A stretch of DNA of 47,031 bases from an uncultured bacterium (GTDB lineage Bacteria; Bipolaricaulota; Bipolaricaulia; UBA7950; UBA9294). The position numbers were made by a program, and so were the translations under genes. The stretch spans positions 1 through 47,031 of the forward strand of contig CAJVYM010000006.1 in NCBI GenBank assembly GCA_913009415.1, written 5' to 3'. Below, piece after piece: positions 3,151 through 44,766 of this stretch (within the stretch, counting starts at the first letter, position 1; each line of letters opens with the position of its first letter). The notes beneath the pieces are model-generated. The model made no database searches. It saw only the letters and a list, made by a program, of their open reading frames with translations, and was not told the origin of the DNA.

Positions 3151-3162
3151 CGTTCACCTCTT

Positions 3163-3300
3163 TTGGCAATCAGCTATCAGCTTACAGGAGTCAGCACCTT
3201 GCAGTTCGGCACCTCACCTGTTCATGTTGTGGACACACACCTGCGCCCCGTCCTGCTTTCCGATGCTTGTGGCTGTAAGCTGACAGCTGACAGCTGATCG
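3163..3300. repeat. Degenerate TAGCTGA-type heptamers in the pheT leader
   Basis: The gap before pheT carries diverged heptamer repeats at both ends: about 3168-3183 (CAGCTATCAGCTTA) and 3277-3298 (AAGCTGACAGCTGACAGCTG). They belong to the same family as the perfect arrays upstream of ffh and rpsP. No gene, tRNA or clear promoter was seen in the middle part. Confidence 0.55.
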
Positions 3301-9327: not shown

Positions 9328-9368
9328 TAGCTGATAGCTGATAGCTGATAGCTGATAGCTAATAGCTA
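9328..9368. repeat. TAGCTGA heptamer array before ffh
   Basis: Four perfect head-to-tail copies of TAGCTGA (9328-9355) are followed by two variants (TAGCTAA, TAGCTA). The array starts just after the putative promoter and ends about 18 bases before the ffh ATG, so it should lie in the transcribed leader. Confidence 0.9.
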
Positions 9369-10923: not shown

Positions 10924-10993
10924 TAGCTGATAGCTGATAGCTGATAGCTGATAGCTGATAGCTGATAGCTGATAGCTGATAGCTGATAGCTGA
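10924..10993. repeat. Ten perfect TAGCTGA heptamers before rpsP
   Basis: Exactly ten uninterrupted copies of TAGCTGA fill 70 bases. Because 7 is not a multiple of 3, the reverse strand reads as a repeating SAISYQL-type peptide, which creates a false ORF. The array ends 20 bases before the rpsP ATG. The rest of the 300-base gap (10713-10923) holds degenerate heptamers at about 10724-10760 and the promoter-like signals described separately. Confidence 0.95.
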
Positions 10994-11013
10994 TCAAAAC
11001 ACGAGGTGAAGCA

Positions 11014-11548: not shown

Positions 11549-12397
11549 ATGCGCTTTGACGTACTCACCATTTTTCCAGAAGCACTCGCAGGATTTCTCT
11601 TTGTAGGAGTCCTTGGCCAGGCGATAGAAAATCGCTTGGTCTTTGCTCATTTGCACGATCTGCGTGACTTTACCGATGATCCGCACCGCGTTGTGGACGA
11701 TCGCCCCTACGGTGGCGGTCCGGGGATGCTTCTCAAGGTGGAGCCGCTCGTGCGCGGAATCGAGGCGATCAAATCCGGTGGGGTCAAGTCTTGTTTCTTG
11801 CACGAAGAGTGTGATGAGGTACCTAAAATTCAAGAAACAAGGTCTGACCCCAAGAGACAGCGCAGCAAGTGGGACCCCAACAAGTGGCGGACGGTTCTCC
11901 TCTCCTCGCAGGGAAGGCTGTTCACGCAGAACGACGCCATCGAGTGGGGGAAGCTTGATGGGCTACTCCTTGTCTGCGGGCGCTATGAAGGGGTCGACGA
12001 GCGGGTTGTGCAGTTTGTCGATGACGAGGTGTCGATCGGGGACTATGTCCTGACCGGAGGAGAGGTCGCCGCTGCGGTGGTCATCGAAGCGACGGCGCGG
12101 ATGCTGCCGGGCATAGTTGGCCGGTTCGAGTCGGTGACGAGCGATTCATTCTACGAAAAGGATCACCTCGGTCCGCCACAGTACACGCGTCCGCCGGAGT
12201 ACCGCGGCCTGCGCGTACCGGAGGTCCTCCTTTCGGGCGATCATGCTCGGATAGAACGCTTCCGCGAGGAGCGGGCATGGGAGAAAACGATGCGTAACCG
12301 GCCTGATCTCATCGGACTGGAGCACGCTCGGGAACGAGTTCCCGAGCGTGCTCCGGAACAGAAGCGGGATCTTGACAGGGTGGAAGACGATGGGTAA
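11549..12397 (+). CDS. trmD: tRNA (guanine37-N1)-methyltransferase, with two palindrome-encoded additions
   Basis: 282 residues; relatives are around 245. SPOUT-knot motifs are present: GGGPGMLLKVEP, LLVCGRYEGVDERV and SIGDYVLTGGE. It makes m1G37 in tRNAs and prevents +1 frameshifting. Two parts look foreign. Residues 77-102 (in VKSCFLHEECDEVPKIQET) fall between the usual IEAIK and TVLLSSQGR and are encoded by an inverted repeat (11779-11852). The C-terminal residues after RPDLIG contain ARERVPERAP, encoded by a perfect palindrome (12319-12354). The frame stays open, so the enzyme is probably made. The 3' end overlaps the next gene by eight bases. Confidence 0.93.
   Translation: MRFDVLTIFPEALAGFLFVGVLGQAIENRLVFAHLHDLRDFTDDPHRVVDDRPYGGGPGMLLKVEPLVRGIEAIKSGGVKSCFLHEECDEVPKIQETRSDPKRQRSKWDPNKWRTVLLSSQGRLFTQNDAIEWGKLDGLLLVCGRYEGVDERVVQFVDDEVSIGDYVLTGGEVAAAVVIEATARMLPGIVGRFESVTSDSFYEKDHLGPPQYTRPPEYRGLRVPEVLLSGDHARIERFREERAWEKTMRNRPDLIGLEHARERVPERAPEQKRDLDRVEDDG
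11779..11852. repeat. Palindromic element inserted in frame in trmD
   Basis: The left arm (11779-11800) and right arm (11831-11852) are inverted copies, with three adjacent mismatches inside otherwise matching 22-base arms: TGGGGTCA...CTTGTTTCTTG against CAAGAAACAAG...TGACCCCA, with a 30-base middle. The GGGGTCA ends recall palindromes linked to REP-associated tyrosine transposases (from memory, unverified). The segment encodes extra residues missing from ordinary TrmD. Confidence 0.75.
12319..12354. repeat. Perfect 17-bp-arm palindrome at the trmD 3' end
   Basis: GGAGCACGCTCGGGAAC (12319-12335), two bases, then its exact reverse complement (12338-12354). It codes for the tail of TrmD just past the normal family end, and lies a few dozen bases before the start of the next gene. 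It is not followed by a T-run, so a terminator role is unlikely. Confidence 0.85.
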
Positions 12398-13545: not shown

Positions 13546-13632
13546 GCGGGGACTGGCTCGTTTTCTCGCGTCAGATCGTGCGAGAAAAAGTGCCTGTCCC
13601 CTTTTATCCGCCCTGAGGCCATGTAAGAGCAC

Positions 13633-43052: not shown

Positions 43053-44474
43053 ATGTCCCATCCGCGAAGAAAGAACAAGATCGATCGTATCGAACCCACC
43101 TCTGAAAACTTGACCGGCAGAGCCGGCCTGACCCCGTGGGTGCGCTACCTGGAACGGATCAACATCTACCAGTTGCTGGACCGCTACCCCAATGAAGTAA
43201 GACTTCACGGGGCAGGCTTCGGCTCGATCCGGAAATCATCTAAAGGGATCAAGGTGGCAGAAGCGTTCAAGCAGTTGTTGTGCTTCTTCCTCGATGGCAC
43301 GGATCCGCACCTGACCTACTTTGACCACCTGGCTGCCGACAGCGGGTACGCGTCCACCATCGAGACGGACCCTGGGGATATGGTGTCATCGCACCAGATG
43401 AAACGGTTCCTCAACGGGTTCTCCTTCTGCAGGAACTTCCTGTTTCGCCGGCTGTTGCAAGATCTGTTTGTGTGGCGGCTGCAGGCACAGAACCCCCCGG
43501 TCGTGTTGTTGGATCTGGATACGATGGTGATGGACAACGACGATGCGCGGTGCAGAGAAGGGGTAGACCCCACCTACAAAAAGCGTAAAGGGTTCCAACC
43601 CTTACAGCTGAAGTGGGGACCGTACGTGGTGGATGCGGTATTCCGACGAGGCAAGAAACACTCTAACCATGGCCAGACGGTCATACGTACGATGACTCAC
43701 ATCGTAGACAGAATCAGGAAAGAGTACGCTCCCAATGTGCCGATCGTGCTTACTGTAGACGCTGGTTTCTTCGACCAAGAGAACTTCCGTGCGTTTGAAA
43801 AGTTAGGTAGCGGTTACGTATGTGGAGGCAAGGTATACAACGATATCGAACAACGAGCCCAGCAGATTCCTGAACAGGACTGGCAGCCCTTGGACAAGGA
43901 AGACGGCCGTTGCTACCTTTGTGCCTCCTTTGGTGACCAACGGGGGACGTGGGACAAGCCAAGGAGGGTAGTGTTCACCCGGCTGATCAGGAAGGATTAC
44001 CACGGGGTGTTGTCCTTTGCCCAAGACCGGAAAGTGTACTACACCAACCTGGGGGAGGGTGATCCGTTGGATCAGTTGCTCAAGGCGGTCGGGAAGGCCA
44101 GTTGGCTAACGCCTCCCGGGGTGGCGGACCTGGCCCATGGCCGGGGCAAGGATGAACTACGTCACCGTGCGCTGAAGGAGTTCGGTACAGAGAAGCTTCC
44201 GTTCAAGAGGTTTGAACCGAACACTGCCTTCTACTACACGATGGTCGTTGCATTCAACCTGCTGGAGGCGTTCAAGCGGGACGTCACCGAGGAGAGCATC
44301 TGTCCTGACGTGTATCCCGCCACCTTCCGCCGGATGTTTCTGGACATTGCGGGAAAGATCATAGTGACTGGTGGTCGTACGCTCCTTAAGGTGGCGCGTG
44401 CGGTGTGGGAGCGGTTGAACCTCCAGAAGATCTGGGACCAAGCCAATTCGCCTCCGGTGGCTGCTCTGGTCTGA
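43053..44474 (+). CDS. DDE transposase (IS1380/IS4-like)
   Basis: 473 residues. Candidate catalytic acidic residues: VVLLDLDTMVMDNDD (first D), VLTVDAGFFDQENF (second D), and the E region ELRHRALKEFGTEKLPF with FEPNTAFYYTMVVAFNLLEAFK, as in IS1380-type enzymes. SD AGGAGGTG precedes the ATG. Residues 45-55 (around NEVRLHGAG) come from a palindromic repeat that seems to have been added between DRY and GSIRKSSKG. The ORF is otherwise intact, so it may be active. Confidence 0.9.
   Translation: MSHPRRKNKIDRIEPTSENLTGRAGLTPWVRYLERINIYQLLDRYPNEVRLHGAGFGSIRKSSKGIKVAEAFKQLLCFFLDGTDPHLTYFDHLAADSGYASTIETDPGDMVSSHQMKRFLNGFSFCRNFLFRRLLQDLFVWRLQAQNPPVVLLDLDTMVMDNDDARCREGVDPTYKKRKGFQPLQLKWGPYVVDAVFRRGKKHSNHGQTVIRTMTHIVDRIRKEYAPNVPIVLTVDAGFFDQENFRAFEKLGSGYVCGGKVYNDIEQRAQQIPEQDWQPLDKEDGRCYLCASFGDQRGTWDKPRRVVFTRLIRKDYHGVLSFAQDRKVYYTNLGEGDPLDQLLKAVGKASWLTPPGVADLAHGRGKDELRHRALKEFGTEKLPFKRFEPNTAFYYTMVVAFNLLEAFKRDVTEESICPDVYPATFRRMFLDIAGKIIVTGGRTLLKVARAVWERLNLQKIWDQANSPPVAALV
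43187..43217. repeat. Palindromic repeat inside the transposase gene
   Basis: CCCCAATGAAGTAAG then ACTTCACGGGGCAGGC. CCCC...GGGG and TGAAGT...ACTTCA form nested inverted arms. 28 of 31 positions match the intergenic copy at 13432-13462. It is translated in frame. Confidence 0.8.
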
Positions 44475-44766
44475 TTTAAGCACGAAATCGATGCCAACAC
44501 AGTTTTCCGCAACTGTCTACAGGGAGGGTGTGCCTTGACGGCCCTCCACGAGCTGGTCTGTTGCCCGTCAACCGGATTCTCTAGGCGTTATGGGTCGCAT
44601 CTTAGCGGGCGGTAGCTTGTCCACCACATTATGCTCACCAAATTGATCACCAGCACATGGTCTGATGAAGAATCGCTCAGATTAGGTAATAAGCATTGAG
44701 TGATTGATTCATCGGAAGATCGGATCACTCAGGCGCAACAGATACCAGATGTCTTGCCGCAAGACC

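Follow-up and report, generated by a model that had tools for sequence, protein, structure and literature searches.

The trmD locus and its insert

How an inverted repeat with the look of a mobile element came to lie in frame within an essential gene, and whether any of it has become part of the protein, are the questions raised by the trmD gene in a 47,031-nt stretch of DNA (the window) from an uncultured member of the Bipolaricaulota. The genome containing the window (G000) comprises 2.32 Mb in 180 contigs. The gene has the following features (window positions).

11549..12397, + strand: trmD, tRNA (guanosine(37)-N1)-methyltransferase, 282 aa, with profile and structure matches
11780..11851, + strand: in-frame TIR-dimer insert, 24 codons (residues 78-101), at the same place and in the same frame in the genomes G001, G002, G007, G008 and G017
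11780..11800, + strand: left arm, 18/21 to the family consensus, encoding GVKSCFL and then HEEC, apparently kept as protein
11831..11851, - strand: right arm, 21/21 to the family consensus, encoding QETRSDP, apparently near-neutral at the protein level
11846..11887, + strand: partial tandem duplication with a 27-nt period at the right border of the insert, 9 codons added relative to G001 and G002

The product scored 178.6 bits with PF01746 and 268 bits with NF000648 (cut-off 220) and represents a plain TrmD fold (structure matches at Z about 22, best 22.4 for 8b1n); its closest named relatives are Candidatus Bipolaricaulota MAGs. The first-pass annotation had described a 74-base inverted repeat in frame within trmD that adds about 25 residues, and this description holds: the insert is a 72-bp inverted repeat plus flanking T/A, with arms TGGGGTCAAGTCTTGTTTCTTG ... 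CAAGAAACAAGGTCTGACCCCA of 22 nt each and 3 mismatches, and the residue count is right for the palindrome itself (24), after which the window protein has 9 further codons. The tandem duplication units begin GACCCCAA at 11846 and 11873 and are present in the window species, the two congeners G001 and G002 being without them. Folding of the inverted repeat gave a z of -3.7, with 0 of 200 shuffles equally stable, and a scan across the whole window, set to arms of 22 nt with no more than 3 mismatches and a loop of up to 60, returned three places, the trmD insert included, and none in 6 Markov shuffles. An assembly artefact is ruled out by the homologous inserts at one place in six separate genomes.

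Several other repeats were observed in the window. The part of trmD that encodes the C-terminal tail contains, also in frame, a second near-perfect palindrome (12314-12359; arms of 22 nt, no more than 3 mismatches). G001 and G002 lack it and the genome shows no other convincing copy, which suggests a local inverted duplication. Heptamer tandem arrays of TAGCTGA sit in the gaps either side of ffh (9328-9367, 5.7 copies; 10924-10994, 10.1 copies), and related units occur near 3160-3300. Positions 1-316 match positions 44348-44673, repeating (95% over 222 nt) the 3' part of a transposase-like ORF (43053-44474), and are presumably an IS-like copy at the contig edge.

The family of ends and its transposases

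A 74-bp query located copies of the ends on six contigs of the same genome (C65, C151, C87, C152, C56 and C71). On C151 two ends make a 103-bp palindrome; on C87 and C152 a Y1 transposase ORF lies between paired ends some 925 bp from each other. The search for arm copies and a REP-type tyrosine transposase, which the first-pass annotation proposed, thus turned up arm copies and RAYT-like genes in the genome.

C87 2537-3460: Y1 element, left end GGGGTCAG, right end GGGGTCAA, one letter off
C152 2204-3129: Y1 element, both ends GGGGTCAG

A third RAYT-like element (L029 1418-2330, on C3) has the left end GGGGTCAGGTCTTGCAATCC and a shortened right end, beside which lies an ORF that we take to be IS110-like. 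The C152 element appears to break up a SLFN_AlbA_2 gene. The Y1 (IS200-like HUH) transposase domain PF01797 scored above its cut-off in all three (C87, 45.9 bits; C152, 55.4; C3, 48.7), and motifs that we take to be HYH and YIALNPVRA were noticed by eye. With NF047646 (REP_Tyr_transpos, cut-off 80) two of the transposases reached 79 and 77.3 bits, missing membership by 1.0 and 2.7 bits, and they are therefore termed 'RAYT-like' and not filed as RAYT members. HTH_3 gave a weak C-terminal match (19.7 bits, cut-off 23) at residues 249-278 of the C87 protein. A search of the PDB returned no sequence relatives of the C87 transposase at E 0.01, and a search of phage records returned no match to the insert peptide.

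The signature GGGGWSAS fits the ends beginning GGGGTCAG around the Y1 genes; a TTGTTTCTTGCA-type end is common to the C87 element and the left arm of the trmD insert, and two further end subtypes are ..TTAGGATTTT and ..TTGGTGTTTT. The ends of the trmD insert, TGGGGTCA/TGACCCCA, contain no GTAG and thus do not qualify as GTAG REPs. The earlier suggestion of a REP/MITE family stands as regards a mobile repeat family, with arm copies genome-wide, but the family has GGGGWSAS ends of the TIRYT type (TIR-associated tyrosine transposases). A degenerate end pattern occurred in 26/60 related genomes, and a second end pattern at 66 places in 7/9 genomes given, each with 0 control matches. Gene-free dimers of ends numbered 8 (76-125 bp) in 48 loci and 4 (93-94 bp) in 20 loci. 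Judged by its sequence, the trmD insert is a dimer of TIRYT-type ends, non-autonomous and MITE-like.

Between rplS and lepB the window holds another TIR-like dimer (13548-13601, GGGGACTGGCTCGTTTTCTCGC / GGGGACAGGCACTTTTTCTCGC, z -4.2), whose right end also matches GGGGWSAS; four further ends of this type lie as two pairs on C11 and a few in G002 and G003.

In-frame reading at other loci

The first-pass annotation had compared the insert with the coding palindromes (RPE) of Rickettsia and suggested a similar process. Read-through was surveyed in 48 loci with 64 ends and 20 loci with 24 ends, a part of all end places. The sole other recognisable gene read in frame was that of a DUF5615 protein in genome G031 (contig C336; L238 1257-1343), in which an 87-bp TIR dimer forms the C-terminus and is read in the same frame as in TrmD (GVRSCFLRGL...MQETRPDPK). 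With this one C-terminal case in 68 further loci, an RPE-like process is not borne out, and a general RPE-like habit in the window's genome is rejected by the scan; the trmD insert is an exception rather than a habit, because only one further in-frame gene was present among the 68 loci.

Distribution among relatives

Searches for trmD gave a match in 49 of 60 relatives and in 27 of the 33 genomes from the Bipolaricaulota family to which the window belongs. Six of these 27, the window's genome included, carry inserts that agree in loop and frame; they are listed here with the match of the left and the right arm to the family consensus (of 21).

G000 (genus g1): left 18, right 21
G001 (genus g1): left 14, right 15
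G002 (genus g1): left 12, right 20
G007 (genus g5): left 20, right 18
G008 (genus g6): left 17, right 12
G017 (genus g6): left 14, right 11

In the other 21 of the 27 a short linker occupies the site, with 0-36 nt between the two trmD pieces matched by tblastn. The comparison with close relatives proposed in the first-pass annotation thus yielded insert-free genes; empty sites and copies elsewhere both exist, which is the reverse of extra residues in all relatives with no copies elsewhere. In g1 the 24-codon insert occurs in all three species and aligns without gaps; among the lengths in the other genera are 54 nt (G008) and 87 nt (G007), again in frame. In G007 the loop differs from that of the other carriers and the insert starts two codons earlier, a point against the single old insertion. 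The loop residues HExC next to the left arm, which are not part of the TIR, are common to g1 and g6, which favors one origin.

The insertion is, as far as the alignments indicate, old and not recent, since six species from three genera share it and the left half shows protein-like evolution. A recent insertion is further weakened by the homology of the inserts across carriers and by the synonymous-only change in CFLH described below.

Different fates of the two arms

The residues CFLH are identical in 6/6 carriers, and every one of the four codons varies. All five alternative nucleotides in these codons are synonymous (P 5e-5 to 1.7e-3 for kappa 1-4), and with the preceding serine codon included there are 7 synonymous changes and 1 non-synonymous, counts that carry no weighting by tree. 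Within g1 the pN/pS was 0.07-0.08 for codons 4-11 (left) and 0.74-0.79 for codons 12-24 (right), figures that rest on few codons with nearly saturated synonymous sites; the 77 codons upstream of the insert had a pN of 0.017-0.049 and a pS of 0.59-0.72. The Cys/His segment reads CFLHxxC in five species and CFLHC in G007.

In the AlphaFold model of the window TrmD (built with 46 TrmD sequences) the pLDDT was 85 for residues 81-90 (SCFLHEECDE) and fell to 53 and 62 in the two blocks that follow; the left-arm residues are thus predicted with confidence and the right arm poorly. The model for G008 gave 81 for residues 81-90 and 79 for residues 91-100.

These values bear on the view that the insert is merely tolerated, an unselected flexible loop that gained no role and stayed in frame since frameshifts kill. 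The right half fits this view, with a pN/pS of about 0.75 and low pLDDT, and insert lengths vary by multiples of 3 from 54 to 87 nt; the low pN/pS of the left half, and CFLH fixed in six species despite codon change, make the view as a whole rather improbable. Half of the palindrome seems now to be kept as protein; most likely the element stayed in place and the enzyme took up the left half as a part of itself.

Sharpness of the palindrome and phylogeny

The palindrome is sharp in G000 (z -4.1), G007 (-5.1) and G008 (-7.6) and lost in G001, G002 and G017 (z -0.1 to -0.6). Its self-complementarity was reached by 5, 1 and 2 of 300 codon shuffles in the former three species, respectively, and by 135-251 of 300 in the other three. 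Maintenance of the hairpin as RNA or DNA (mRNA structure, pausing or a binding site) would fit the strong hairpin in 3/6 species, but the other 3/6 are without it, and paired changes on both arms showed no excess over shuffles (2 vs 1.6). A conserved RNA hairpin is accordingly rejected, and we give a role of the hairpin as nucleic acid hardly any credence.

The same distribution, sharp in three carriers and gone in three, is uneven for a single old insertion, and a sharp palindrome in one species per genus, with decayed congeners in g1 and g6, makes re-insertion or conversion conceivable. The trmD loop would then be a recurrent landing pad, repeatedly entered or converted by other TIR copies, and the sharp palindromes of G000, G007 and G008 would be younger than the locus. 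In line with this, both arms of G008 have GGGGTCAGGTCTTGC, a GGTC variant that also occurs at the end of the RAYT-like element on C3 of G000, and the right arm is identical to that end over 20 nt. The arm codons of G000 and G007 are also unusually similar (10/11 alike, where the remainder of trmD predicts 5.5; P 0.004, the most extreme among 18 comparisons). Against repeated insertion, the g1 inserts align gap-free over 24 codons, the decayed forms in G001 and G002 being homologous to that of G000, HExC is common to g1 and g6 outside the TIR, and the paired changes on the two arms stay at the level of shuffles.

Trees bear on the same choice. The genera g1 and g5 were sisters with an UFBoot of 97 for rpoB, an aLRT of 99.8 in the combined tree and a support of 66 in the 5-gene tree. 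With rpoB added, g6 leaned to non-carrier genera (aLRT 76.7 combined, UFBoot 49 for rpoB alone) and thus stood apart from g1 and g5 in two trees, which favors repeated insertion. Neither the 5-gene tree nor the rpoB plus 5-gene tree (computed without the G021 row, branch supports being read by bipartition) recovered the six carriers as a clade. Monophyly of the carriers was not rejected by the AU test (p 0.264 for five genes, 0.075 with rpoB), and a tree of TrmD only, with the linker excluded, grouped them weakly (UFBoot 33). A single old insertion is ranked first and repeated insertion or conversion second, the landing-pad explanation being in our estimate unlikely.

Proposed history

We consider it likely that a TIR dimer inserted in frame into TrmD anciently, and that its left half has since been kept as protein while the right half drifts. 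The family membership of the ends, the shared position and frame, the synonymous-only change in CFLH and the pN/pS contrast are observed. The source would be a non-autonomous palindrome in which two ends of a TIRYT/RAYT-type Y1-transposase element are joined head to head. Y1 enzymes work by a single-strand route, and mobilisation by a TIRYT may have followed it. The dimer would have landed, in a single event, in frame in the TrmD loop that joins the helix following the YGGG motif to the strand running towards the LLSSQG motif, at least before the diversification of g1 and probably before the split from the two related genera. Read in the trmD frame the element is open (GV[KR]SCFL...QETR[SP]DP), which would explain why the essential enzyme survived. 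Purifying selection would later have acted, at the protein level, on the left arm and the loop beside it ([GE][VI][KR]SCFLHxxC), with the left peptide presumably packing on the fold and doing something useful; the right arm, meanwhile, would have drifted and changed length in steps that kept the frame.

A bolder version, in which the palindrome was exapted as a working Cys/His segment of TrmD in several genera (with a structural or redox/metal role in the left arm) while the locus still receives or corrects palindromes, appears doubtful; were it true, a selfish DNA family would repeatedly edit a core enzyme.

Comparison with known systems

Di Nocera and colleagues described, in the accessible part of their report, RAYT-like genes flanked by GGGGWSAS TIRs, often dimers, and named them TIRtrons (PMC3733652); by the corresponding part of a later survey, most TIRtrons belong to TnpAREP subclass 2.1 and have an HTH at the C-terminus (PMC6006769). 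As far as these parts describe them, the elements found here are alike in the Y1 ORF of about 290 aa between GGGGWSAS inverted ends (PMC3733652, PMC6006769) and in the presence of stand-alone dimers of ends (PMC3733652); they differ in that their transposases score 1.0 and 2.7 bits below the REP_Tyr_transpos cut-off. Within the accessible parts of this TIRYT literature no report of a TIR dimer kept as protein was found (PMC3733652, PMC6006769). No paper on palindromes in trmD or on TIRYT in Bipolaricaulota was found by title or abstract, nor was the half-and-half fate of arms across genera found in print, in a search of mostly non-subscription literature with few preprints.

Rickettsia RPEs, compared by description from part of a review (PMC10969869), share with the trmD insert a mobile-looking palindrome in frame inside a housekeeping gene; in-frame copies are much rarer here, and a candidate transposase is present. 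Many in-frame gene copies per genome, as in RPEs, were not found in the loci scanned. In Coxiella, QMITE is likewise an in-frame MITE in coding genes but of another element family, the cases given in the accessible part of that report being genes for hypothetical proteins and an extension at the 3' end of enhC (PMC5896051). Intragenic GTAG/CGTC REPs are dimers adding 20-30 residues in genes for RNA or DNA processing, including truB and recB, with a shared site in Xanthomonas recB (PMC3733652); their ends are GTAG or CGTC, whereas those of the trmD insert are GGGGTCA.

In-gene REPs, RPEs and QMITEs are thus already known, and the trmD case is a new variant. Coding palindromes are known mainly as insertion lists, and the available part of the review calls their contribution in Rickettsia unexplored (PMC10969869). 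The trmD insert can be traced in six species from three genera, lies in an essential enzyme, and is accompanied by a candidate source transposase family in the window's genome, by insert-free sites in near relatives and by a clear contrast between the arms, a combination that makes domestication testable by an ordinary in vitro TrmD assay. Beyond what is described for intragenic REPs, cross-genus conservation and half-and-half selection have been measured for the trmD insert.
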